In this document: positions 20,401 through 51,571 of the stretch, one piece after another
Layout: each line of letters begins with the position of its first letter
How positions within the stretch are numbered: the stretch's first letter is position 1
NCBI GenBank assembly: GCA_903813345.2
Contig: CAIIXF020000010.1
Location: 2,719,169-2,783,168 of the forward strand
DNA from: Owenia fusiformis
Taxonomy: Eukaryota; Annelida; Polychaeta; Sabellida; Oweniidae
Reading direction: 5' to 3'
Length of the DNA: 64,000 nucleotides
The notes under the pieces: model-generated
Databases searched by the model: none
What the model was told of the DNA's origin: nothing
The model's input: only the letters and a program-made list of their open reading frames with translations
Program-made: the position numbers and the translations under genes

Positions 20401-23400
20401 TAATACGAGTAATGTGTGACGTCATAACAGCAGGCCGTAGTAATGGCGGACCATAATGAATATTCTAAACATTTTGGTGAGTTTTCATGTTCGAATCGTA
20501 ATATAGACCTCAGAGCAGGTGTTATATCAATGAATACAGACCTTAGGGCTAGGCACAAAAGCTTTCAGTGCAGAAAACATTTGTGCCTAGCCCTGCGGTC
20601 TGTATTTGTTGATAGAACATCTGCCCTTCGGTCTATATTTCTTTATTAATAATAATTACTAAATGCATTTGAGGGTTTTGATGTTTTTGTTTTATATGGC
20701 AAAAACATAATGAGAATGCAGTTGAACTTTTGTTGCAATGTATTTGGTGTTATCTCTGATTCTTGGTTTGTACACTGAAACCTGTAAAGTGGAACACCTA
20801 GAAGTGGAACACCACTGTGCAACACTAATCCCAATAGAAACTGACTTAATGTTTAATGAACCCTCCATAAGTGGAATACCACAAGGTGTTCCACTTGGAC
20901 AGGTTTTACTGTATTATATTTCTTATTGATTGATTATTTCATGATTGTCGCAACACAGATGAGTATTTTGGGATTGTAAAGGGAACATTTTAAAAAAAGT
21001 GTTGCGTCTTCTCTGTTAACAAAACATTTATCTACATCTTCCATCGGGCATGAGCTACGGCTGGTTATCGAGAGCACTCAACCTCATTAGGATCCCAGTG
21101 TTTATGTGATGTTTGCCATTCTAAAGGCCTTCTTGTAGTCAGTTTTGAATGAATAAATTAAGTTTGCCATTTTCTACTCTTTTACAGGAAGTTCCATGGG
21201 GTAGCAACCTTTTAATTACAATATTAGCACATTAGATATAAATATTACTTGTTAATGATTCTAAATGGTTGCATCCTTCTTGTGATGTAATGATGTAAGG
21301 CCCTTACATATACCAGTTTAGGGGCCTCAGTCATCCCAATACCTTATCCCTTATAAATTTAATGTAACTTCAGAGATTCGTTGATTGAATTTTTCTGGCT
21401 TCTTTATAAGATTTTACCAATTTCTTTTATTTTGACATTTACTTTAGCAATTTAAGAAATAAGAAAAAAGCCTGGTCACTTGGACAATTTGTATATCGGG
21501 CCTATAATTTGTATGATAAAGAAGTAGGCCTACTTGAAGGTCACTGTCAGATTCAGATGGCATAAAAATACTAATGATTAAAATGTGAATTGGATCAATA
21601 CATGTTCGCTCTTTTGAGATTCACATTATTTCAAACCTTAAATCTGTTTGGCGCAAATGCGTGTGTTTATCTTATGGGAATAAAGTTCTGGGTGCATCAT
21701 TTGTTTACTACAGAAAGGTCTCGTGGACAGTTCTTGTATAAATACTATAATATATAAAGTATCTTTTATATTTATTCTTCAGGTGTCGCAAGAACAGTAT
21801 GAGTTGTATTGTGAGATGGGCTCCACGTTCCAGTTATGTAAAATATGTGCAGAAAATGATAAAGACATCAGAATAGAGCCATGCAGCCATCTTTTGTGTA
21901 CCCCTTGTCTCACAGCTTGGCAGGTGAGCTATACCATAATGCATTGCACATAGCAGACGGCTGACAGGTGCATTCTATATACAAGTATGAGGAAACAAGC
22001 GCCAAAAATTTAATAAATGAAATTTGAATTTGGGAAAATGTGATTTTTCATGTAATTTTTTCTCAGTGGTATTTTGGATAAAGTTTTGAAAACATTATAA
22101 AGTCGGTCATGATACTCACTGAAAAAATTCTTCAAATAGATTACATTTATATGTAGGACTCTGATGGTCAAGGATGTCCCTTCTGTCGGGCAGAAATCAA
22201 AGGCACCGAACAAGTTGTCGTTGATCCTTTTGACCCACGAAAAACGTTATCCAAAAAGAATTGCTCAACCACAAAGTCTGGCAGTGCACAAAGTCTCGAT
22301 ATAGATGAAGAAGATGCATTTGAGGTAAGTTAACATCTCCCATAATGCAATATTTTTATCAGACGACAAATATATGTATCCCATAATGCATTGTCAGAAG
22401 ATAAAATGTTGCAAAATATATGTAGGATATATAGTTCATGCATGATTGTTCTTGTAATTTAACAAATTGTAGTAAAACACACAATTATGTAACAATTAAT
22501 AGTAAATAGTAGTTATAAAATTTTAGTTTTAAAACTAGTTTAAATGTAGTGGTGGGAGATGATTGAAGCATGTTCCCTATATAGTCTTAAACTCTAGCCA
22601 AACACCTTGTTTTTTTCTAATGTCATTTTTATGGTCTCTTCTCGAGGTGTATTCTTCTGTAATATTATTTTATTTTTATTCTTAATTTTATTTAGTATAG
22701 AGAAGACCATGTGAATTATAAATAATTTTCTGTAAATCAAAGCTGTGACACACCTCAGTTCCCTATAGAGCGATGGTTATGTTTGTAATACATTCAACCA
22801 TATCAAAATTTAAAAACCTTTTCAAGAGTTTGATTTCAAAATGCATATTTATATGTTCTATTCTACATTTAATGCTGTCCCCTCAGTATAAGCAGTAAAA
22901 TTTCCTATGTAAGGCATAATATCTATATATATTTTTTTGAAACTGTTAGGATTAATTCAAGTGATTTTCACTTCCATGTTTTTGTGGTCGGACTTGATAA
23001 ATGCAGTTTTGTAGTCTTGTAAAACTATAGTTCCATATTATTGCCTTCAAAATACACTCCATTAAAGCATGCCAAAAAATTAATGGTGACCTAGATAAAT
23101 GAATGGCTGAGAACATGATACTTGAAAGTAAGTGGGAATTTTTGCCTTTTACTTGGTGTATGTGCTGGTATATATAGTTTGTGCTGGCTGGTAGAGTTTA
23201 ACTGGAGCATAGAAACACATGAAACTGAGGGGACAGTCAGTGGAACACATAATTCAATATTACGATGTGCTAATGAGCTTTTGAGACTCAGGAACTGCTT
23301 CTGCAAAATTAGACCAAAATATATGTTCTTCATCTAGACTTGCTCTTCGAAGTAGAGATACTTTATTTATTTTGACAACCATGTTCCCGTTATATATGCT

Positions 23401-38330: not shown

Positions 38331-39180
38331 GGGGGACCTTCTACCAAAAGTGTCATTAGACAGTGTGCCATGCTTATAATATTCACATACCAAATATGAA
38401 CAAAATCGCTCTGCTACTTTTCGAGTTATAGTAAAATACGTTAAAATAGTGGCCATTTTGAAAAATGGCCGCTTTCTACTAAAAGTCTCATTAGACAGTG
38501 TGCCATGCTTATACGTATTCACATACCAAATATGAACAAAATCGCTCCGCTACTTTTCGAGTTATAGTAAAATACGTTAAAATGGTGGCCATTTTGAAAA
38601 ATGGCCGCCTTTTACCAAAAGTGTCATTAGACAGTGTGCCATGCTTATACGTATTCACGTACCAAATATGAACAAAATCGCTCCACTACTTTTCGAGTTA
38701 TAGTAAAATAAGTTAAAATGGCAGCCATTTTTCAAAATGTCCACCATTTTTCAAAATGGCCGCCTTCTACCAAAAGTGTCATTAGACAGTGTGCCATGCT
38801 TACAGTATTCACATACAGAATATGAACAAAATCGCTCCACTACTTTTCGAGTTAAAGTAAAATACGTTAAAATGGCGGCCATTTTGAAAAATGACCGCCC
38901 TCTACCAAGAGTGTCATTAGACAGTGTGCCATGCTTATACGTATTCACATACCAAATATGAACAAAATCGCTCCACTACTTTTCGAGTTTTAGTAAAATA
39001 ACTTAAAATGGCGGCCATTTTTCAAAATGTCCGCCATTTTTCAAAATGGCCACCTTCTACCAAAAGTGTCATTAGACAGTGTGCCATGCTTATAGTATTC
39101 ACATACCAAATATGAACAAAATCGCTCCACTACTTTTCGAGTTACAGCAAAAATCGTAAAATAACGAGAAAAGGGCGCCA
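38331..39180. repeat. 135/155-bp tandem array, 6 copies
   Basis: The word gtcattagacagtgtgccat starts units near 38351, 38486, 38622, 38777, 38912 and 39067, so spacing is 135, 136, 155, 135 and 155. The longer units carry an extra ~20-bp ttttcaaaatgtccgccat piece. Units end in facing ATGGCGGCCAT words that can fold. Confidence 0.92.
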
Positions 39181-40340: not shown

Positions 40341-40579
40341 TCTCACAAAAAGTAGATTTTCGAGTAAACTATGAATAAAATTTTGAATATGAAAATTTTG
40401 AGTACAGTTGCAATAGGTTGCTATTTTCCAGTAAATTACAAAAAAAAATTTATTCTCTGAACTATATTTATTTGTTCAGCGTCTATTGAAATGTATATTG
40501 AATAAACATAGTTCAAGAAAAATAAATTGTTTTGTTTAGTTAAAAACACAGGTCAAAGATTCATTGGATAATTACTAAT

Positions 40580-41168
40580 GTAGACTGCTCTAACTAATAT
40601 CTGTACTGTAGAGTCCACATGGAACTCCTCTGAATTTACTTCTAATATAGACTGTTCTAACTCTGATCTGAACTGTAGAGTCCACATGGATCTCCTCTGA
40701 ATTTACTTCTAATATAGACTGTTCTAACTCTGATCTGTACTGTAGAGTCCCCATGGATCTCCTCTGAATTTACTTCTAATATAGACTGTTCTAACTCTGA
40801 TCTGTACTGTAGAGTCCACATGGAACTCCTTGAATTTACTTCTAATATAGACTGTTCTAACTCTGATCTGTACTGTAGAGTCCACATGGATCTCCTCTGA
40901 ATTTACTTCTAATATAGACTGTTCTAACTCTGATCTGTACTGTAGAGTCCCCATGGATCTCCTCTGAATTTACTTCTAATATAGACTGTTCTAATTCTGA
41001 TCTGTACTGTATGAGTCCACATGGATCTCCTCTGAATTTACTTCTAATATAGACTGTTCTAATGCTGATCTGTACTATATGAGTCCACATGGATCTCCTC
41101 TGAATTTACTTCTAATATAGACTGTTCTAATTCTGATCTGTACCATATGAGTCCACATGGATCTCCTC
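40580..41168. repeat. 67-bp minisatellite, about 8-9 copies
   Basis: gtagagtccacatgg recurs at 40608, 40675 and 40742 and onward at 67-base spacing. The unit has no in-phase stops for long runs in any - strand frame, which explains the overlapping open frames. Its rightmost, most diverged copies run into the last recognised exon of the - strand gene. Confidence 0.95.
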
Positions 41169-41246
41169 CGAGTTTACCTCTGATGTAGAGTTGATTGCAA
41201 GTTCAAAACTGTCACACTGAGGAGAGGCTACTGCAGAGACATCTAA
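41127..41246 (-). CDS. Unknown gene, last recognised exon
   Basis: Acceptor tatttttcag. Encodes LDVSAVASPQCDSFELAINS and TSE, then either runs on through VNSEEIHVDSYGTDQN to TAG at 41127 or splices at GAG|GTAAAC (41178). The tail after 41178 is the first monomer of the 67-bp array, so the true C-terminus is uncertain. Confidence 0.6.
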   Translation of the reverse strand, partial: LDVSAVASPQCDSFELAINSTSEVNSEEIHVDSYGTDQN

Positions 41247-44200
41247 CTGAAAAATAAAATCATGACAAGAATATATTTTTTGCTTTATCGTTTCCATAGA
41301 ATAAATGTATATTTTCTCATTACATGCCTTCTGAGTCTCTACTATTATGTATGTATGAATGTAATGGAACCAAACCATAAAAACTTTTTTCGCAAACAAC
41401 ATTCTATTAGATGTAACTTACAGATGTATTATTGGATGGCGGTGAGTTGATTGGTGTGCTGGTGAAGGTTCTAACACGTCTTATACCTAGGCACTGTGCT
41501 ACAGCTAAAAAACAAAACACATGTATTTTATATACTATAAGAAAATAAACAAATATCCCGTCTTGTTGTATCATGCATGTTGTCAACTATATTGCTTTTT
41601 GTGCTTTCTTTTTCTACGTAATGAGTAAAAGACAACTGAATAACCATCATGATAAACCATGCCATATCATTTTCAGGCTTATTCAGTAAACTCAATCATA
41701 CACATTAGAATTAATCATACCAAAGCTGTATTTCTATACTTTGATTGTTTATCCCTAATAATAATTTAATTGAGTACCTCTACTGTGTCCATGTGTTATT
41801 CCAGATTGGTGAGATTCCGTGTCTGGAGCTACATCAGGGAAAAGATGTGTGGAACATTTTATTGGCATTTTCTTTTGTAGTCGTCTTCGCTTCTGTGGCC
41901 TCCTTGTAAGCAAATAAATCATGTTACATGGGATCAGATCAAATCAGTTTAAAAAACGTGACAAATGTTTTTGAGTGTGATAATATGTTTGGCTACTAAG
42001 GGTCCATCTATATTCATTTTCTTGTCCATTTTGTCAAGAATAGGTGTCATGGTATTGAAAAGATAAGATTAAGATCTCAAGCAATGCAATTAACAACCTT
42101 CTGCAATAAAACAATCATAATATTGCAATGTTTACAGTAGAGATTGTTGAAATTATTAAAAGGACACTATTTTGAAAATTCTCTCCATAAGGCATAGTGA
42201 CAAATGGACATACGGACAGACAGGGGTATTCTCTATACCCCTCTCATAGGATAATCATGGGTACCTGGAATCCAATGTGCTGATGTGTCTCACTGGAGAT
42301 CTTTCTGCAACAGCTGTAATAGACACACATGGAAGTCAATTTCTGTTAAGAAGGCAGATGGGGAATATTTGAGCATTTTGCTGCTGTTACTGCAATTTTA
42401 CAACAAAAATAGTACCATATTTTAGACTGGTCATCACACGGGAGAATATATATTATTATATCATTGAGGTTCATGTTACTTTACTTATTATCAGAAAACT
42501 GGAGCCTAATCAGTTCATATAATCTAAATATCTCTTTGAAATGTTCTCTAGTCATATGGATTATCAAAAACTTAAGATATCTCACCCCTAATTTTCACCA
42601 ATTCATCCTGTGGATTGTCGACATCATCACTGTCTTCTGTATCTGCATCGTCTGCATTGTCACTACTTGATGACACTTCTTCAATGTCCTCATTTATGGT
42701 TGGATCTTCATCCTTGTCACTGACATCATTATCTGAGTTATTATCAAGGTTATAATCATTGACTACATTATCTCTTTGTGCCGATTTCTTGTCCTCAAGA
42801 GCAGCTATTTCATCATTGAGCATGAAGCGATTGATTGGTGACCTGTCATTGCAATTGGCATCTTCAAATGAATGTTCTACTATGGTTTCAAGATCTGGTA
42901 GGAAACTAAGAGATTTTACAGATTTTTCAAATGTTGGAATCTGAATATCATATTTGCTGTCTTTTCTACTTAGTTCAACACTGCTCTCGGATGAAGAAGG
43001 CTCATCCTCATCTTCTTGTTCTTCTGGGTCTTTGCTGGGAGAATCTTTCACTGAATCTTCACAAGTATTGTTTAAATCATTTGTACTGACATTGTTCTTT
43101 TCTTTACAGCTTGTATCTTCAGCCTCATATTTGTTCTCATTCACTGGAGTTGAGATGCCAACAGTCTCCCACACAGACTCACTCTCATTTAGTTTTACAT
43201 CATAAATAGCATCATTATCTGATATTTTTCTGTCTCTTGTTTCAGGTTGACCATCATCATTAGCTTTGCAGTTCCAGTGAAATATTTTCCAGTTTATTAG
43301 TCCCTTGAGACTTATATTGTCAGGAGAGACATCGGGTCTTTGTAAATCTGCAGCAATTTTCTCAACTGATTTTGTCATATGTTCGATACTTGAATCTTTA
43401 TTTTGTTTAAACTTTTGAGTTTGTTTTTCAGTGATTGAATAAATTGTTGACATATTCAAGAGTTGGTCATTTTGAATTATAACTGTTTTGTGACCATCTA
43501 TTTTGGTAGAGCATAATGGTTCTTCCTTGTTCAGAGAAAGGGCTTTGCAATCCTTGCTCTCAAAATCATCATATCTTACTGAATGTTCTTTGTGGATGAG
43601 CTTGTCTGTTGCCTTTTGTGTTATATTGTAGATTGTTGACAATTCCTCCAGTTTATCCTCATCATATGTGTCATATATTTTGGTAGAACACTTTGGCTTG
43701 CTATTCACAATACATGAAGATTGATAGTCATTGTCTTCACTATTTTTGTTGTTCTGTTGTATTCCAATATCATCCTTTTGAATGTGGGATATTTCTTGAA
43801 ACTCGTGAAAGTTGTTATCTACCATTGTTGAGCACTTTAGTCCACATTCTTTCAAACCATTTGCCCTGTTCTCTTTCTTCAATTGTGCTTTCAAATGATT
43901 TCCATTTTTTGTGTTGGAAGTTCCCTTTTCGTCATGAATAGATGACAATTCAAAATTGTGTGCAACAGTAGGATGACTTGATTGGATCATGGTAGAACAT
44001 TTGGGAGTGCTCTTTAAATTGTCAATGCATTCAGCACCCTTTAATCCTCCCCTATCATTATCTTGTATCAGTTCTGGAGAGTTCAGCTGAGTTTTTTGTC
44101 TAACTACTGTAACATGTTCTCCACTTGGTATTCTCAAGTCATTATCTGCCTTTTTCCAAGGTGCCTCAGTCTCATTGGAATGGTGTAAATTTTTATTTTC

Positions 44201-47200
44201 AAGTATAGTGTCATCATATATAGAAGACAATTCAATGCTTTTGCAGTGTATATTAAGACCATTTGCTTCTGGTTGTATCATCGTGGAGCATTTATGAATG
44301 GCCATATATCTGTTACTTGGTTTTTTCTGATTATCAGTTTTCCCTTTAATCACTGTACATTCTGCTATGGGAGATATTTTTAATTGTTCTTCAACTTCAT
44401 CAATATTTCTTGCAAACTTGGTATGCATCACTGTAGAGTTTTTAGGTCCATATTTTTCAAGCATGTCAATTGTGTTTGTGAACACTGAATATGGTGTTTC
44501 GCTGTAGATGTTTGGTGATGGCTCCTCATTATTCTTCTCACTTTGAGTGATTGCTGTTTGAGTGTTTTTGATCCCTGACATACATGTTTTGCTACCTTCA
44601 ACTTTATTGTTGTTAACATCAGTAGCATTTGAATCAGTTTTCTTGTTTGTTAGATGAAATACTTTATTTTCTGATATTTTTTGCCTTGTGTTGCTGATAT
44701 TTTGAATTGGAGATAATGTTTGAATGTCCACACCCAGTTCAACTGAGCTACTATTATTTATTGAATATAACTTTGTTGAGTGTTTTGGGTTGAGATTTCT
44801 CTTATTATTTGGATCATATTGTTTTTCATTCACTTGTACTGCAAGGGGGCTAGCTGCATCTGTTTGGGACTCAATATCCATGTGTTTAGAAGTTATTGAA
44901 ATCTGATGGTTCGAATGGCTCAATTTTGATCCCCTTTTTGTAGAATTGTCTAATTTTCTCTTCTCCACTTCACTTTGAGCAGAACCATCATTTTCATGAG
45001 GGGCAATGACATTGGTATCACTGGTTGTGCTGTTTATTAATCTGCTTTCATCTTGTATATCAGACACATCACAGTTTTGCTGTTTGCCTATATCAATCTG
45101 TTGAAGATTTTGGGTTCCCTTATGAGCTATTGTGGTTCCAGTTTTTCCTTGTGTGGTAATAACAACTGATAAAGCATCATCATTAGTATTGATCATTGCG
45201 TTATTTGGGGATCTGCTTTCAACAGTATTTATACTAGAGACATCACAATTATGATCAAGATTGTGTGCATTTATCACACTTCTATGTATTGCCGTTGAAT
45301 TCTTTGGACAAGGCTTTTGTGTAGTTGTTTCTTTTGTACTAGATAATGAGGTAACACTTGGTGTACCAACCATATGTTTATTGGTTATTTCACCTTTTGA
45401 GATTTCTTTTTCAACATTTATAGATGACATTTCTGCTCTATCAACATCCTCAATATTCAAAGCACCATTTGTGGGATTCACAGTTGAATTCTTTGGTCCA
45501 CACTCCACTGATACGCTAGATGAATCAGTTATTTGTACATGGAATGGTTTCTTCTTCTTTTTGCTTATGACTCGGACATCAAGCTCGATGTTTGTTCTTT
45601 CCTCTATTCCACTATTAGAGGTTTCAGAGCTGATATCATATACTTTATGTTTTCGTCTCAGCATGCCAAGTTTTGAAGGAGGTAATGTTTGGAATGTTAT
45701 CAGTTCATTATCACTACTTGATGAGGAGTCTATGCTTACTGTTTTCTTTGACTTTTTCCTCGATTTCTCTACTTCCTTCTTAATGTTCGATTTATGAGAT
45801 TTTATCTTTTCTTCCTGAGATTTCTGATTTGATGTTTTGCTCATTTTTGAGAAAAGTCTAGGTCCTTGAATAGAAAGGACAAAATCTGAGCATTTTCTTT
45901 TGTTTCTTTTATTTATGGAAGAAACACATCTTTGAAAAACATTGGGACCTTTTTGTTCAATTTTTTCAGTCTCAGTGTACTTTGCCAATTTGGAACAAAT
46001 TATAGGTACATTGGGATGGGTTTCTTGAGTTTGCCTTTTCATACTGTACTTCCTTGGATAAGGATGAACATCACCAGGTGTATTTTGCAGTATAGCCATG
46101 AAGCTATCCTCAGTTCCATTACCTTCTAAACTCAATTTGCTTGGTTTTTGCTTGTCTTTATCAACAGTATTTCCAAGAATATGTTGCGACACTTTTTCTG
46201 CATTGATGGATCTTTTGCTCCGTTTCATTGTTTTACGAATATTTTTTTCAGTATTTTGATTCATTTTCTGATTTGTTGTATTCCACTTAATAAGGCATCT
46301 TGAATTTTTCACTGCTTGGTTTGAGTTCTTTTGGAATCCACTGATTAGTTCTTTATCCAGTGAATTCCTGGTTTGCCTTGTGTAATCTTTGGTTGTTTTA
46401 TTAGGGATTGGGGTTCTTAATTTTCCTTTGGCCAATATCTCCTTGCTTTGCCTTGTGTCATCATCTGCGGTTGTATTTGGAATCAAGGTTCTTAACTTTT
46501 CTTTGGCCAATATATTCTTGGTTTGATTTGTATTATCTTTGGTTGTATTTAGGATTGCAGGTCTGAGGTTTCCTTTAGTAAATAGATTCTGAGTAGTAAA
46601 TAGGACTGAAGATTTTGATTTGTCCTTAGAAAATGAATTTTGGGTTTTCCTTGTGCGATCTTTAGTTCCAGTATCTAGGGTTGGAGATTCATCTTTGGAG
46701 ATTGAGCCTTGTGCTACTATCCTATCATCCTTGATTGCAGGACTCAAATAACTTACTTCCTTTATATCATCTTTGGATAGAAATGAAGTTTTTGATCTGT
46801 CTTTGGTATATGAATTCAATGAATTTTGAACTGCACTTTGTTTTGTTATAGTATCTACCATTAAACATCTTGGTTTGCATTGATTTGATTCAAAAATTGT
46901 TTTATCCTCCTTATATACATTAGATGACAATTCAAGCTCATCAGAAGCCACTCCTTGCTTATTTTGTCTCTTTTGTGCTAATCTTATACTGTCCACGTGT
47001 TTCCATGTATCGCCTGATGCATGTGCAGATTTTTGATTTGCAGGACATATTTCCCCACCATGGTCAATTATCTTGTTTTGTTGGTCAACCTCTATTGTTT
47101 CTTTCTGTGCGGGGAATTTATTGTCTGAACCAAGAAAAATATAAATTTGATGGTTTGTTTTTGTTAAAGTTGTTCAAGCAGATTTTGTACATTTCAATCC

Positions 47201-50200
47201 AGAGTTTTATATTTCAATTTTATGAATGAGGAATCAATTACAATCAGTAAATATGGTGTACTACTTCGATCATGTTGGAGCAGTGGCCAGATATTGTAAA
47301 TTACACAAGAAAAATTACTTGTTTTACTAAGAACTCTGTTGTCTACTATATTCTGCATGCCTGAATATACAAGTATATTGAGGGCATTAACCAGACTTCA
47401 TGATACATTGAATTTGCTTGGCAGTATCATGGCTACAGCAAAGAAATATGTGCATGAGCAAACATGATGTATATGATTTCCTCTCTACAATGACCTATAC
47501 ATAAACGTATACTTACATTCAATACTTGACAGCTCAAAAAAGTCAGTTACATCATTAGCTTGTTTTGCAAAGCCTCCGTCCAAGAGAGTTGAATTCTTGA
47601 TGAGTCTTGGTTCCACAAGTGGACTAAGAGTGAGACTGCCACACAAGCTCACGTCTGTAAAATTAACACAATGTTAATATTTTTGACATGTTGACTTTTT
47701 ATATGACTTTCTTAAAAATTTCCTCCCAAAAAACAAATTAATGTTGAGAATGCCCATATCAAAATGAAATTGTACACTATTCAACTGCAGACATGTATAA
47801 ATAAAGTGGGTTATGTATGCTTTACCTTTACAGGGAGAGGCGAGTTTTTCCACATTGTCTATCAGAGGCAGATAATGGTCTGCAAAAAATCAATAGAGTA
47901 TTAAAATTGCAGTATTCTCATTACACATGTTTTCATTTAATGTCAAACATTAATTCATATTTAATCTTAACCCTAGAAGTCAAAAGGAGTCAAAATGACT
48001 CCCCCTCCCCCAGGTTAAGTTTTTCCTGTGAAACCTTTTATAGACATCAGGTAAGATCTTCAAATTCTCAGTAGCCTGAGCTACAGATATTTCACATGTA
48101 ATCCCTCGGTAAATACAGTATTTTCCTCAGATATACCCTGTATCAAAAACCTCCCATTAAATAACCTCTATATATTTGATACTGATATAATATATCAATA
48201 AACATTAAGATTTACAAAACAAGATGACATACCTGTCTGTATCTGTGCACGTCTACATTGTTCTATTGGACTAAAGGAATCACGATATGCAAACTGGCGC
48301 TGCTTTTTTGGACTTAACAAAGTACAGTTATCAACTTTCTCTTCTATTGGACTATTAACTATGTCACTTAGATGTGTAGGTTGTTCTACTGCATGTCTTG
48401 GCTGTTCAATTGGACTTGCTTTATCTCTGTCATGTCTTGGCTGTTCGATTGGACTCAACGCACAACCTGCTAAGAAGCAATGTTCTGAATAAAATAATAA
48501 TGTACAGGGTGTTCCATAATGACCATCCCCCCATCCATCCATTACATTGCTATAGATAATAGTGTATGGAGACATGGTTATTATAGCTGTTTGCAGGACA
48601 CGTGGATAATTTTGGAGAAAAAGTAGATATCAGATTCTATGCTTAAGGTAAAATGGGTACCTTTTGTAAAGCGATGTAGCAAGTTGTAAAGACTGTTGAG
48701 CTTATTCAAAGATGTTTTAATTAGTCCAGAATTGAACAAGCTTTCATATGATATATAACATGCTGGTACGCTATTTGTGATTGGTGGTTGATGGGGGACG
48801 GTCATAATGAAACACCCTGTATATTGTTTCAATATTGGAATATTACTTGTGTCTTTAATGTTTACAACATCAATGCAATAATGAATACAAAAATATTCTG
48901 TAGTCATGTGAATGAAAACTGAGCTAAAATAAGGACCTACCCCTAGACTTTTGTTCTGCAGTATCCTCATCACTGGCCATAAATGTCTTCATATCAGCTG
49001 ACTCATTACCCAGACTCCTCTCTGCTTGTAACAGTGCATGCATCATAATATCCTCAAAGTTCTCAGGATTTCCGGCTTCTTTTGTTGTATATCTTTTAGG
49101 GCATGTCATCTTTGATGCACTGAAAACTGGTTGCCTTGTTTGTTTTTTGTCATTTATTTCAATAACACATTCAGGTTGGGTTTGTGTAGGTTTAGGTTTT
49201 GTAGCTCTTACTAAATGTATGTTTTGTTGAGGTTTGATGGTGGATTTAGTCTTCTGAAATGGAAGAGTTCCTCAAATGGCATTTATCATTGAGAGACAAA
49301 TTTAAATGCAAATGAAAGAAATGACGAAAATGAAACCTTGAAATTTAATTTACTGACCAAATGATCAGCATAAAGGAACATACACAATTGGAAGGTAAAT
49401 GTACTAGAAACTATTGTATTAGACACTATTGATCATACCTTATACACTAAATACTGTGACTTTAAAATTGTAACAAGTTTACAGTATTTAACTCACTTTA
49501 AACAAGGCATTAACATGAAAAATGTACCACCTAGTTGCTTACAATATCATTAGTTCAATGTGAAGTCACATTTAGAACTGTAGATGATTTTGAAAAATGG
49601 TCAATTTAAAGCAAGTTTTTTGACCCTGAAAGAAGGTCATTGAAGGTGAAATCTCAAATCAGATTTAAAACTTCTGAGAACTTGTAGATGATTTTATACA
49701 TATATTTCTTTATTGCGACCAATTCTGATCACATACATAAAGTTTAATATAAAAGGTTATGAAGAAAAAACATACACATACAGATATAACAAAATACAGT
49801 TGTGTAGTGCAGGACGTTTAGAGTATTGAGAAATCTAGTTCTCAGTTGGTATATATGATACACCATCCTGGCTATTATAATACAATCATAATATTCATTT
49901 GGGGCAAAAATATTTTCAATTACATTTAGGTCACTTCCACCTAAGTAAGGTCGTATAGGATCTCTAAATGTTTCTAGCACATTACAAAATTTAATGAAAT
50001 GTAACAATGATTCATGCGAATTACACATTTTGAAAAAAAATTGGTCAATATGCAGCAAGCTGAAAAAGACCTTTTTGACCTTGAGAAGGTCATTGAAGGT
50101 CAAATCTTTTTTAACCTGGAGAATGTCATTGAAGGTCAAATATATAGTCAGATTTGAACTTTTGAGAACTTGTAAATGATTTTGAAAAGTAAATAAAGTT

Positions 50201-51571
50201 GAAAAAAGACTTTTTTGACCTTTTTTGACCTTGAAATGGTCATTGAAGGTCAAATCTTGAATGTAAAAGTCATATTTGAACTTCTGATAACTTGGACATC
50301 ATTTTGAAAAAAATGGTCAATTTGAAGCAAGTTCAAAAAAGACATTTTTGACCTTTTTAGACCTTGAAAAGGTCATTGAAGGTCAAATCTTAAATGTAAA
50401 GTCAGATACTGTCTAAACAGTATTTGTTAAGTTATTAGAAGTTTTAAGAATTTTTTACAGATGCCAACCGCCGCCTGCCAATCGCCACTTCTTGGTGGTG
50501 ACATAATGATACCACATTTATTTATTAATCCATGATGTCATGTGCATACAGGGATTAGCATCCATCCTATTTTGCTCTTTGAACCATGCATGTGTGCAAG
50601 AATCATGTTGGATTTTTGCAGAAAGAATATATATGTATTATTATGGCACATTACTGATAAAAATAAGATGTGAGATTAACATCAAATGAACCACACACAT
50701 ACATGGAGCTTATAAATAGAAATGCATCTAATCATTCCATTCTCAGCTAAGACCAAGATCATGTTCAGATTCCATAATATTGACAGAATTTGACTTCATG
50801 TTAATGGAATTTACACAACCTTATATGAGTATTTAATTGTGAAAAGTAAAGAGGTGATATTCTGCCCACACACTGATTACATATGGGTAACAAGGTATAT
50901 GAACTTTAAGAATTAAATATTAGCCTACCTTTTTCTTGACAGTTTTTGTCTTATTTTGACATCCATTAGTCTGTTTGGGAAATGTTGACAAAAGTTTCTT
51001 GTTTCCTTGATCCTCAACATCTGGTAAGGTGGTGGACATACTTGTTAACTTAGCATGGTAGTAATTCCTGAAATGGTAAAATAATCAAAGGCACACAGCA
51101 AACAATATTGTATCAAAATGACTCCTTATAAAGTTAAACTCCCCAAAAACTGAACGAGTCCAAGGTTTTAATACCACAAATAATTCCTGGAAATTTCAAA
51201 GCAATCAAATGAGCATTCTATCTTCAAATGCACAGACAAGAATAGTAAGACAATGATACCCACCCACAAAAGCGGACAACAAAAGGTACAATAAAAAAGG
51301 TAAAGTACGACTAAATTATTTTTGAAATCAAGCAAATACAATCGACAACAATGCAATTGTGAGTTAAATCAGTGCATGTATTGATTATGATCATTTTAAT
51401 ATTGAAACATCATCCAGATGCCACAATATGTGCAACTGAATATCCCCTAAAATATAGTTTTTCAACATTAAACATTTAATCATATTCAAGAACACACCTC
51501 AATGTATGCTTCCATGTTTTACTGCAAGCCTCTTTTGGACTTTTGGACCTTTCTTCACTCCTAGTCTCCAT
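41127..51571 (-). CDS. Unrecognised large Ser/Thr-rich motif-repeat protein (11 exons)
   Basis: Eleven exons with GT-AG borders and agreeing phases join into about 1,939 residues, or 1,955 if the last frame runs to its stop at 41127. I do not recognise the family. Seen: a basic, Lys/Thr-rich N-terminus; four SPIE motifs (exon 4); 25-residue repeats around TRQT(K/R)N..L.K..L(R)T.IPN (residues ~465-565); basic clusters; about eleven PK[C/N]ST-x-hydrophobic boxes, each followed by [ED][LMVI]S[STP]I (residues ~300-318 and ~860-1545); an acidic Ser-rich stretch; and RRPQKRRRLQKK near the C-terminus, a likely nuclear signal. No globular domain or membrane segment. It converges on CBL. The motif array suggests a multivalent nuclear docking scaffold regulated by phosphorylation; that is inference. 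Confidence 0.8.
41422..41504 (-). CDS. Unknown gene, exon 10
   Basis: Acceptor gttttttag, donor ATCT|GTAAGT. Only one frame is open and it is the one the phase of exon 9 predicts: VAQCLGIRRVRTFTSTPINS and PPSNNTS. Confidence 0.75.
41778..41902 (-). CDS. Unknown gene, exon 9 with basic nuclear signal
   Basis: Acceptor gcttacaag, donor AGAG|GTACTC. Encodes RRPQKRRRLQKKMPIKCS then THLFPDVAPD. KCST recurs right after the basic cluster, a possible last copy of the box. Confidence 0.75.
42205..42257. repeat. Short copy of the GGATAATCAT-tail repeat in intron 8
   Basis: ggacatacggacagacag plus ccctctcataggataatcat match the tail of the repeat at 39303-39560. Confidence 0.5.
42265..42313 (-). CDS. 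Unknown gene, exon 8
   Basis: Acceptor ctattacag, donor CCAG|GTACCC. Encodes AVAERSPVRHISTLDS. The phase bridges exons 7 and 9. Confidence 0.72.
42586..47124 (-). CDS. Unknown gene, 4.5-kb exon 7 with main repeat array
   Basis: Acceptor cttggttcag, donor AGGG|GTGAGA; open for 1,512 codons. Modules read from right to left (start of box): 45499 KNSTVNP/EMSSI; 45316 KNSTAIH/DVSSI; 44790 HSTKLY/LSPIQ; 44450 KNSTVMH/ISPIA; 44296 KCSTMIQ/ELSSIY; 44010 KCSTMIQ/ELSSIH; 43845 KCSTMVD/EISHI; 43695 KCSTKIY/ELSTIY; 43515 CSTKID/NMSTIY. A tract near 45720-45840 is very basic. The end is acidic and Ser-rich (EEQEDEDEPSSSES; VSSSSDNADDADTEDSDD). Confidence 0.93.
47517..47654 (-). CDS. Unknown gene, exon 6 with first CST/ELSSI module
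   Basis: Acceptor attttacag, donor GAAT|GTAAGT. Encodes LTLSPLVEPRL, then KNSTLLDGG and FFELSSIE, one full module of the later array. Confidence 0.8.
47826..47879 (-). CDS. Unknown gene, exon 5
   Basis: Small exon, acceptor ttttttgcag, donor AAAG|GTAAAG. Encodes DHYLPLIDNVEKLASPCK. Kept because its phase bridges exons 4 and 6 exactly. Confidence 0.72.
48233..48466 (-). CDS. Unknown gene, exon 4 with SPIE repeats
   Basis: Acceptor tcttagcag, donor ACAG|GTATGT. Encodes ALSPIEQPRH, ASPIEQPRH, NSPIEEK and FSPIEQCRR, plus LLSPKKQRQ: four copies of S-P-I-E-[Q/E]. S-P sites are potential proline-directed kinase targets. Confidence 0.82.
48505..48819. mobile_element. TA-flanked MITE, 315 bp, in intron 3
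   Basis: CAGGGTGTTCCATAATGACC at the left and GGTCATAATGAAACACCCTG at the right are inverted repeats (about 27 bp with few mismatches), flanked by TA. Same CAGGGTG end class as 26331-26559. Confidence 0.88.
48941..49253 (-). CDS. Unknown gene, exon 3
   Basis: Acceptor ccatttcag, donor GG|GTAGGT, 104 codons. Contains a Lys/Thr/Pro/Gln stretch, then the only helix-like segment of the protein, ENFEDIMMHALLQAERSLG, then an acidic stretch ASDEDTAEQ. Confidence 0.78.
49570..50420. repeat. Degenerate tandem repeat, about 110-120 bp, in intron 2
   Basis: The core gaaggtcaaatc with gaccttgaaaaggtcatt recurs near 49640, 50090, 50130, 50240 and 50370, each with a following cttgta(g/a)atgattttgaaaa. 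The array is split by a LINE fragment at 49697-50033. Confidence 0.75.
49697..50033 (-). mobile_element. 5'-truncated LINE, C-terminal end of reverse transcriptase protein
   Basis: On the - strand the frame reads KMCNSHESLLHFIKFCNVL, ETFRDPIRPYL and onward. The pattern C..C-x-H-F-x-C with following R fits the zinc-knuckle-like end after a non-LTR reverse transcriptase. AATAAAG lies about 15 bases before the 3' limit. It sits inside the 110-120-bp tandem array. Clade not resolved. Confidence 0.6.
50929..51067 (-). CDS. Unknown gene, exon 2
   Basis: Acceptor ccatttcag, donor AAG|GTAGGC. Encodes RNYYHAKLTSMSTTLPDVED and a Lys-rich end KTKTVKKK. Phase agrees with exons 1 and 3. Confidence 0.75.
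51498..51571 (-). CDS. Unknown gene, first coding exon
   Basis: GTTGCCATGG is a strong start context. An in-frame TGA lies just upstream. Encodes METRSEERSKSPKE and KTWKHTL; donor GAG|GTGTGT. A tttttacag acceptor at 51600 suggests a further non-coding 5' exon. Confidence 0.72.

Follow-up and report, generated by a model that had tools for sequence, protein, structure and literature searches.

The window analysed here is a stretch of 64,000 nucleotides from the polychaete Owenia fusiformis (assembly GCA_903813345.2, contig CAIIXF020000010.1, positions 2,719,169 to 2,783,168 of the forward strand). Its minus strand carries a gene of 10 coding exons (window positions 51039-41127) predicted to encode a protein of 1,921 amino acids (aa), in which two short boxes recur: box 1, K-[C/N/H]-S-T-x-[I/L/M/V], and box 2, [L/M/V/I]-S-x-I. 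This motif array has a two-box grammar of its own that is absent from Pfam and is apparently kept by selection. In this study, we describe the array and weigh how it may be read in the cell.

Results

The gene model was extended by hand from its largest exon and is a prediction from the sequence. All nine introns have GT/AG ends and their phases are consistent, which yields a single 1,921-aa frame from ATG to TAG. An open frame of 1,533 codons lies in the largest exon, exon 6, and the very short exon 7 is in the model because the reading frame requires it. The original prediction had given the span 42586-47654 for this protein; that span corresponds to exons 5 and 6 of the ten and does not stand as the whole gene, and a further box 1 lies in exon 8. 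The coding exons are as follows.

50929..51039, minus strand: coding exon 1; start ATG at 51039; splice model with donor GTAGGC, phase consistent
48941..49253, minus strand: coding exon 2; splice model; one predicted helix, no confident fold
48233..48466, minus strand: coding exon 3; four S-P-I-E boxes resembling box 2 (LSPIEQ, ASPIEQ, NSPIEE, FSPIEQ)
47826..47879, minus strand: coding exon 4; splice model
47517..47654, minus strand: coding exon 5; LSPLVE and module 1
42586..47124, minus strand: coding exon 6; 1,513 codons; holds most of the array together with a C-terminal part that is acidic and rich in Ser/Asp
42265..42313, minus strand: coding exon 7; 49 bases
41778..41902, minus strand: coding exon 8; contains the basic stretch RPQKRRRLQKK and one unpaired box 1
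41422..41504, minus strand: coding exon 9; splice model
41127..41246, minus strand: coding exon 10; stop codon TAG; a 67-bp tandem repeat begins in its end part

By its composition the predicted protein is disordered and Ser/Lys/Asn-rich (S 11%, K 10%, N 8%, T 8%, D 7%). Exon 2, modelled with AlphaFold2 from the single sequence, reached a confidence (predicted local distance difference test, pLDDT) of 51.9 and was not taken into a fold search. The basic stretch in exon 8 is a probable nuclear localisation signal, judged by eye. The 67-bp tandem repeat, of about nine copies (40575-41189), begins within coding exon 10, near the stop codon, and from there fills what is presumably the 3' untranslated region. 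AATAAA-type signals, also read by eye, lie downstream of the gene near 40,450-40,470.

Each box occurs 11 times in the protein. In box 1, the residue before S-T is C, N or H in all 11 copies, a K precedes it in 10 and a P stands before that in 7; I, L, M or V is found at +2 from the Thr in 10. Box 2 is preceded by D or E in 8 of the 11 copies and by N once. For 10 of the 11 box-1 sites a box 2 follows downstream, with Thr-to-Ser distances in modules 1-10 of 20, 19, 19, 21, 20, 19, 16, 13, 15 and 19 residues (range 13-21, seven of the ten pairs at 19-21). Two sites have no partner: the box 2 at aa 970 and the final box 1, at aa 1830. The sites, all on the minus strand, are listed in protein order.

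47521..47601, minus strand: module 1, IKNSTLL ... FELSSIE, Thr-Ser spacing 20
45419..45496, minus strand: module 2, PKNSTVN ... AEMSSIN, spacing 19
45230..45307, minus strand: module 3, PKNSTAI ... CDVSSIN, spacing 19
45056..45070, minus strand: orphan box 2, DVSDI; its box 1 has been lost or can no longer be recognised
44705..44788, minus strand: module 4, PKHSTKL ... QTLSPIQ, spacing 21 (S-P type)
44366..44446, minus strand: module 5, PKNSTVM ... LKISPIA, spacing 20 (S-P type)
44219..44296, minus strand: module 6, HKCSTMI ... IELSSIY, spacing 19
43937..44005, minus strand: module 7, PKCSTMI ... FELSSIH, spacing 16
43781..43840, minus strand: module 8, LKCSTMV ... QEISHIQ, spacing 13
43631..43696, minus strand: module 9, PKCSTKI ... 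EELSTIY, spacing 15
43442..43519, minus strand: module 10, PLCSTKI ... LNMSTIY, spacing 19
41842..41862, minus strand: lone box 1, IKCSTHL, in exon 8, without box 2

These counts bear out the original prediction of about eleven modules of CST/ELSSI type (11 sites of each box, 10 of them paired). Box 2 does follow box 1 as had been proposed, within a range narrower than the 10-25 residues then given. The modules had also been called dispersed; the array is instead quasi-periodic, with core box-1 steps mostly near 50-60 residues or multiples of that. Five further boxes in exons 3 and 5 (LSPIEQ, ASPIEQ, NSPIEE, FSPIEQ and LSPLVE) resemble box 2 with S-P. The pattern SPI[EQ] occurs five times in the protein (the four exon-3 boxes and one box 2), against 0.08 expected in shuffles.

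The pairing of the boxes far exceeds what shuffled proteins give. A strict pattern, which misses one box 1, finds 9 paired boxes, against a maximum of 2 in 20,000 protein shuffles; [P/H]-K-[CNH]-S-T occurs 7 times, likewise against a maximum of 2 in 20,000. When S/T positions were drawn at random 20,000 times, no draw gave more than 6 pairings (observed, 10 of 11), and the 1,920 circular shifts never brought the count to 10. The best shift gave 9, probably because small shifts stay within the nine-residue window. These last two controls are descriptive, since the 13-21-residue window was derived from the data. It should also be noted that the patterns defining the sites already include the S-T of box 1 and the S-x-I of box 2. 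In an unbiased self-similarity scan, box 1 ranked first and, at each of the widths 7, 8 and 9, scored higher than any of the 20 shuffled maxima. Box-2 windows were absent from the 12 listed per width in that scan, and the exon-3 SPIE windows were not above the highest shuffled maxima. Leave-one-out profile scores exceeded the 95% shuffled maximum for 9 of 11 box-1 copies and only 4 of 11 box-2 copies, the weakest box 2 being that of module 5 (score 3.6). The case for box 2 therefore rests on its position relative to box 1, because box 2 by itself does not stand out in the scans. The profile scan of the protein returned no further box 1 without S-T, and its only further box-2 match was LSPIEQ of exon 3 (0.065 expected by chance).

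The spacing of the copies and their codons speak to the origin of the array. The core box-1 to box-1 steps are 63, 173, 114, 50, 97, 55, 48 and 59 residues, and the box-2 to box-2 steps are 63, 58, 117, 113, 49, 94, 52, 50 and 63. Because most steps lie near 50-60 residues or two or three times that, the modules are suggested to be remnants of an old tandem repeat of about 55 residues that has decayed. All 22 box serines use TCN codons, while AGY makes up 35.5% of the serine codons of the gene (P 6e-5 if drawn freely) and 25 of the 57 other serines in the array region. No single synonymous step connects TCN with AGY, and the uniform codon choice thus points to common descent of the box copies. 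Third-position differences between copies are 0.69, 0.80, 0.64 and 0.64 for the S, T, S and I codons, against 0.63, 0.64, 0.63 and 0.63 expected under free codon choice (TCN alone for Ser). The linkers have no clear similarity in the module alignment, where the S, T, S and I columns alone show no variation and a single Lys column comes close. Since third positions vary as under free choice while S, T, S and I are kept, the box peptides seem to be held by selection on the peptide rather than on the DNA, which is saturated. The codon use (22/22 TCN, third positions scrambled) thereby supports the earlier proposal that selection acts on the motifs.

A separate and less decayed duplication of 75 bp lies in exon 6 at 46412-46550 (1.9 copies, 82% matches; ILAKEKLRTLIPNTT... 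/ ILAKGKLRTPIPNKT...). This duplication suggests that the gene may still be gaining repeats.

Relatives of the protein were sought in databases and in the genome (about 498 Mb, 525 contigs). A Pfam scan of exons 2, 3, 6 and 8-10 gave no family at E <= 10. The large exon found no relative in the PDB and no second copy in the genome. One weak match to the array region, at C2:3900362 (E 0.22, 27%), is not significant; two open frames of at least 80 aa on one strand of that locus, neither of them the matched frame, lack the boxes. An Rfam scan of the window gave no match. The absence of Pfam and PDB relatives from these searches, together with that of a second copy, supports the suggestion of a new motif-array family made in the original prediction.

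Short motifs were counted in the protein and compared with the mean of 2,000 shuffles. Counts were near the shuffled expectation for USP7 (13 vs 14.0), LxxIxE (6 vs 5.3), KEN (1 vs 1.1) and D-box (4 vs 4.3) motifs. The SUMO-interacting motif (SIM) was observed 3 times against 10.0. The remaining counts were 2 vs 1.1 for SxIP, 2 vs 0.6 for LC8 TQT, 59 vs 52.7 for CK2, 3 vs 1.8 for S[ST]P and 3 vs 1.1 for T-x-[ILVM]-aromatic, and PCNA, HP1 and FFAT-like motifs were each absent from the protein. None of these motifs accounts for the boxes. Mild enrichment was seen for [ST]P sites (28 vs 16.6; 4 of 2,000 shuffles reach 28) and for [RK]-x-[ST] (64 vs 51.6; 48 of 2,000 reach 64). The 14-3-3, FHA, CtBP and BRCT motifs were weighed by their general consensus only.

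Discussion

We tentatively read the array as a set of docking sites for the polo-box domain (PBD) of PLK1 (S-pT-x, not followed by Pro) in a phospho-dependent cell-division scaffold, where a serine of PLK1 or cyclin-dependent kinase (CDK) type accompanies each site further downstream. This reading is possible rather than probable, and PLK1 is the leading named candidate as the reader of box 1. PLK1 would dock through its PBD at phosphorylated box 1 and, held there, would phosphorylate the box-2 serine about 20 residues on; the two S-P copies of box 2 would suit CDK instead of PLK1. Phosphorylated box 2 (phi-pS-x-I) would then recruit a second partner, and the roughly ten copies would confer high avidity and a graded response. 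We infer this relay from the S-T core of box 1, the -2 context of box 2 and a PLK1-like polo box encoded in the genome.

All 11 copies of box 1 have the S-[T/S] core of the PBD, a feature used in finding the sites, and none has Pro at +1 from the Thr; at -2 stand N in 4, C in 6 and H in 1. The binding rule of the PBD is given in PMC13161223 as S-pT-X or S-pS-X, where a non-Pro X raises the suspicion of non-CDK or self-priming. The same paper describes a preference of the PLK1 kinase domain for Leu at -3 and D/N/E/Q at -2, with no Pro at +1. The two S-P copies apart, every box-2 serine (9 of 11) has D, E or N at -2; each box-2 serine can thus be read as a PLK1-type or CDK-type site. The protein has nine other [LMVIF]-S-x-[IL] sites: three of these are of S-P type, a fourth carries Glu at -2, and the other five show neither feature. 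The polo-box frame in the genome reads DHTKIIVCPLM, and we take the H-x-K of DHTK as its putative phosphate pincer; in human PLK1, the pincer is named as H538/K540 (PMC13161223).

One of the closest known parallels is CENP-U/PBIP1. According to PMC13161223, CENP-U pairs Thr78 with Thr98, 20 residues on, in a relay-priming scheme: Thr78 is efficiently phosphorylated only after CDK1 primes Thr98, first docking occurs at a CDK-primed S-T-P site, and the authors see no obvious benefit in PBD dimerisation. The PBIP1 peptide FDPPLHSpTA is described as bound to the PBD (PMC6828814). In both systems the first site has an S-T core that no Pro follows, a further Ser/Thr site stands some 20 residues downstream, and the region is disordered. 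The Pro at -4 in 7 of 11 box-1 copies is as in PLHSpT, and five copies have His or Asn at -2. CENP-U also has Ile-Tyr at +2/+3, as does one copy of box 1 (Leu-Tyr in another). It differs in having one docking pair, whereas there are ten here, and the upstream aromatics that give Thr78 nanomolar binding are missing from box 1. The helical domain from the C-terminus of CENP-U (PF13097) was found neither in exons 2, 3, 6 and 8-10 nor, by a search without a positive control, elsewhere in the genome.

Several observations weigh against PLK1. The PBD core is short, and the S-[ST] class is only mildly enriched (52 vs 40.6; 58 of 2,000 shuffles reach 52). Box 1 keeps features that are superfluous for PBD binding (the Lys at -3, the hydrophobic residue at +2 and, in 6 of 11 copies, a Cys at -2), which hint at another reader, and its K-x-S fits the likewise mildly enriched [RK]-x-[ST]. 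N, D, E or Q stands at -2 of the box-1 Thr in only 4 of 11 copies and an aromatic residue 5-12 positions upstream, of the kind that enters the cryptic (Tyr) pocket in high-affinity 'master' sites, in only 2. Sites of the general PLK1 pattern show no enrichment over shuffles (20 vs 18.9). Box 2 has no S-T-P priming site, unlike the first docking site of CENP-U. The link to mitosis would be one of motif only.

A stronger form of the PLK1 reading is that the protein is an independently evolved, KNL1-like mitotic or meiotic scaffold with a 10-11-fold kinase-relay array, in which PLK1 docks at box 1 and writes box 2, and a second factor, perhaps a phosphatase, is recruited in an avidity-tuned manner. 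We regard this elaboration as speculative and rather unlikely. No such PLK1-docking array was found in the literature searched.

At least as likely as PLK1 is some other pair of readers, such as one that recognises the phosphate but requires the box-1 Lys and hydrophobic residue as well; the scaffold would then not be one for PLK1 and possibly not mitotic. This is a serious contender, for box 1 keeps K in 10 of 11 copies, C/N/H, and the +2 hydrophobic residue in 10 of 11, all beyond the needs of the PBD. Among the motif patterns scanned, none known to us explains both boxes, and the protein has no Pfam relative in the exons scanned and no PDB relative. However, this explanation names no reader, and both the S-T core and the acidic or S-P surroundings of box 2 are features that mitotic kinase motifs typically have.

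It is improbable, in our judgement, that the array couples a kinase with a phosphatase, such that box 1 docks PLK1 while box 2 and the exon-3 SPIE boxes are PP2A-B56 sites of LxxIxE type that phosphorylation at position 2 switches on, the arrangement known from BUBR1 and the APC1 loop. The hydrophobic anchors (positions 1 and 4) are present in all 11 copies of box 2, which follows from its defining pattern, with Ser at position 2, and both LSPLVE and ISPIAE fit strict LxxIxE. Pairs of PLK1 and PP2A-B56 sites are reported for BUBR1 (PMC10577578) and APC1 (PMC8441438), and the likeness is that of a PLK1-docking site paired with a phospho-regulated phi-S-x-I motif. Those are single modules, whereas an array is seen here, and the Glu of LxxIxE, described as crucial at position 6 (PMC8441438), is mostly missing: Glu occupies this position in 1 of 11 box-2 copies and Asp in 3 more. 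Nor is strict LxxIxE enriched over shuffles.

Still less credit can be given to neutral decay of an old minisatellite-like repeat in a disordered protein, with boxes kept by chance or recent conversion: the quasi-periodic steps and the codons of common descent would fit, but synonymous positions are as divergent as under free codon choice while S, T, S and I are kept, and the linkers have lost clear similarity around those columns and the one near-invariant Lys.

The KNL1/Spc105 family was the other option of the original prediction, as a diverged kinetochore-type scaffold. Like the present protein, KNL1 is a large disordered scaffold with a repeated pair of short motifs, the first with Thr and the second with an acidic-hydrophobic-Ser/Thr core. 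A separate KNL1 was, however, found in the genome at C8:12,610,932-12,614,501, in a 1,190-aa open frame (L017:4933-8502, minus strand). We assign it as KNL1 because of its match to Pfam MELT_2 (E 1e-14, 53.6 bits, cut-off 24) and an RRVSF in an open frame about 2 kb upstream of its array. It has 18 M-[E/D]-[M/F/I]-T repeats, and in ten cases a T-x-[I/L]-F box precedes a MELT Thr by 12-16 residues. Met precedes 18 of its 20 [E/D]-[LIVMF]-[ST] sites, and each of these 18 has Thr at the last position, where the pattern would also accept Ser. The 1,921-aa motif-array protein contains no M-[E/D]-[LIVMF]-[ST], no RVxF and no SILK, the last two as had been stated in the original prediction. With a separate KNL1 present and these motifs missing, it is not the KNL1 of this genome, and membership was rejected.

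That it could be a diverged or second KNL1/Spc105, with box 1 as T-x-x-aromatic and box 2 as a MELT-like Bub3 site, is the least credible reading: the order of the boxes is the same, the spacing is similar (12-16 residues in the true KNL1, 13-21 here) and [E/D]-[LIVM]-S is enriched (18 vs 5.9), but Met stands at the MELT position in 0 of 11 box-2 sites, the boxes carry Ser, [E/D]-[LIVMF]-T is not enriched (2 vs 4.6), an aromatic residue at T+3 of box 1 occurs in only 3 of 11 copies, and the Pfam scan of exons 2, 3, 6 and 8-10 gave no RWD or coiled-coil family. The likeness in box order and spacing is real and may be an analogy.

The original prediction had proposed a genome search for a separate KNL1 with an RWD domain. 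The KNL1 itself was found, and the RWD-type models PF18210 and PF08317 gave nothing over cut-off genome-wide, including at the C8 KNL1; these searches are insensitive here because the true KNL1 is also unmatched. The sole match to PF18210 (L001) was rejected as, by eye, a kinesin-type coiled-coil gene. PF08317 had seven matches, all below cut-off; of the three loci viewed, L012 and L013 are coiled-coil by eye and L015 is something else. The second MELT model, PF19221, had five genome matches, all below its cut-off, of which one (L008) is the C8 KNL1. The C8 KNL1 also carries several copies of a second repeat, LDSKSLLSKLT..., between its MELT repeats and a repeat HIEANNTHI... near its C-terminal side, neither of which is, to our knowledge, a known KNL1 motif.

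Repeat arrays of short phospho-motifs, such as the MELT array of KNL1, are a recognised design for tunable signalling platforms, and we know of few cases. The present array would be a second one in the same genome, recognised from sequence alone and with its own grammar of two boxes about 20 residues apart, which persisted after the rest of the repeat decayed. If box 1 docks PLK1, the protein would be a platform with about ten tandem PLK1 sites, compared with two in CENP-U (PMC13161223), and the effect of copy number on PLK1 recruitment would become testable. If it does not, the array points to another phospho-reader.

A 46-bp tandem array extends from 51748 to about 57200 (by Tandem Repeats Finder to 52000, beyond that by eye as repeated open frames) and coincides with a region at 52-58 kb where GC content is raised and both GC and AT skew are strong. 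Downstream of the gene, interlocking tandem repeats of 136, 154 and 290 bp occupy 38337-39152. The plus strand carries a RING finger frame at 21684-21950 (Pfam zf-C3HC4_3, E 3.9e-6), which by eye we take to be a Cbl-type ubiquitin ligase. About 5-8 kb past the right end of the window lies a 589-aa open frame, retrotransposon integrase-like by eye, beside a 497-aa open frame.

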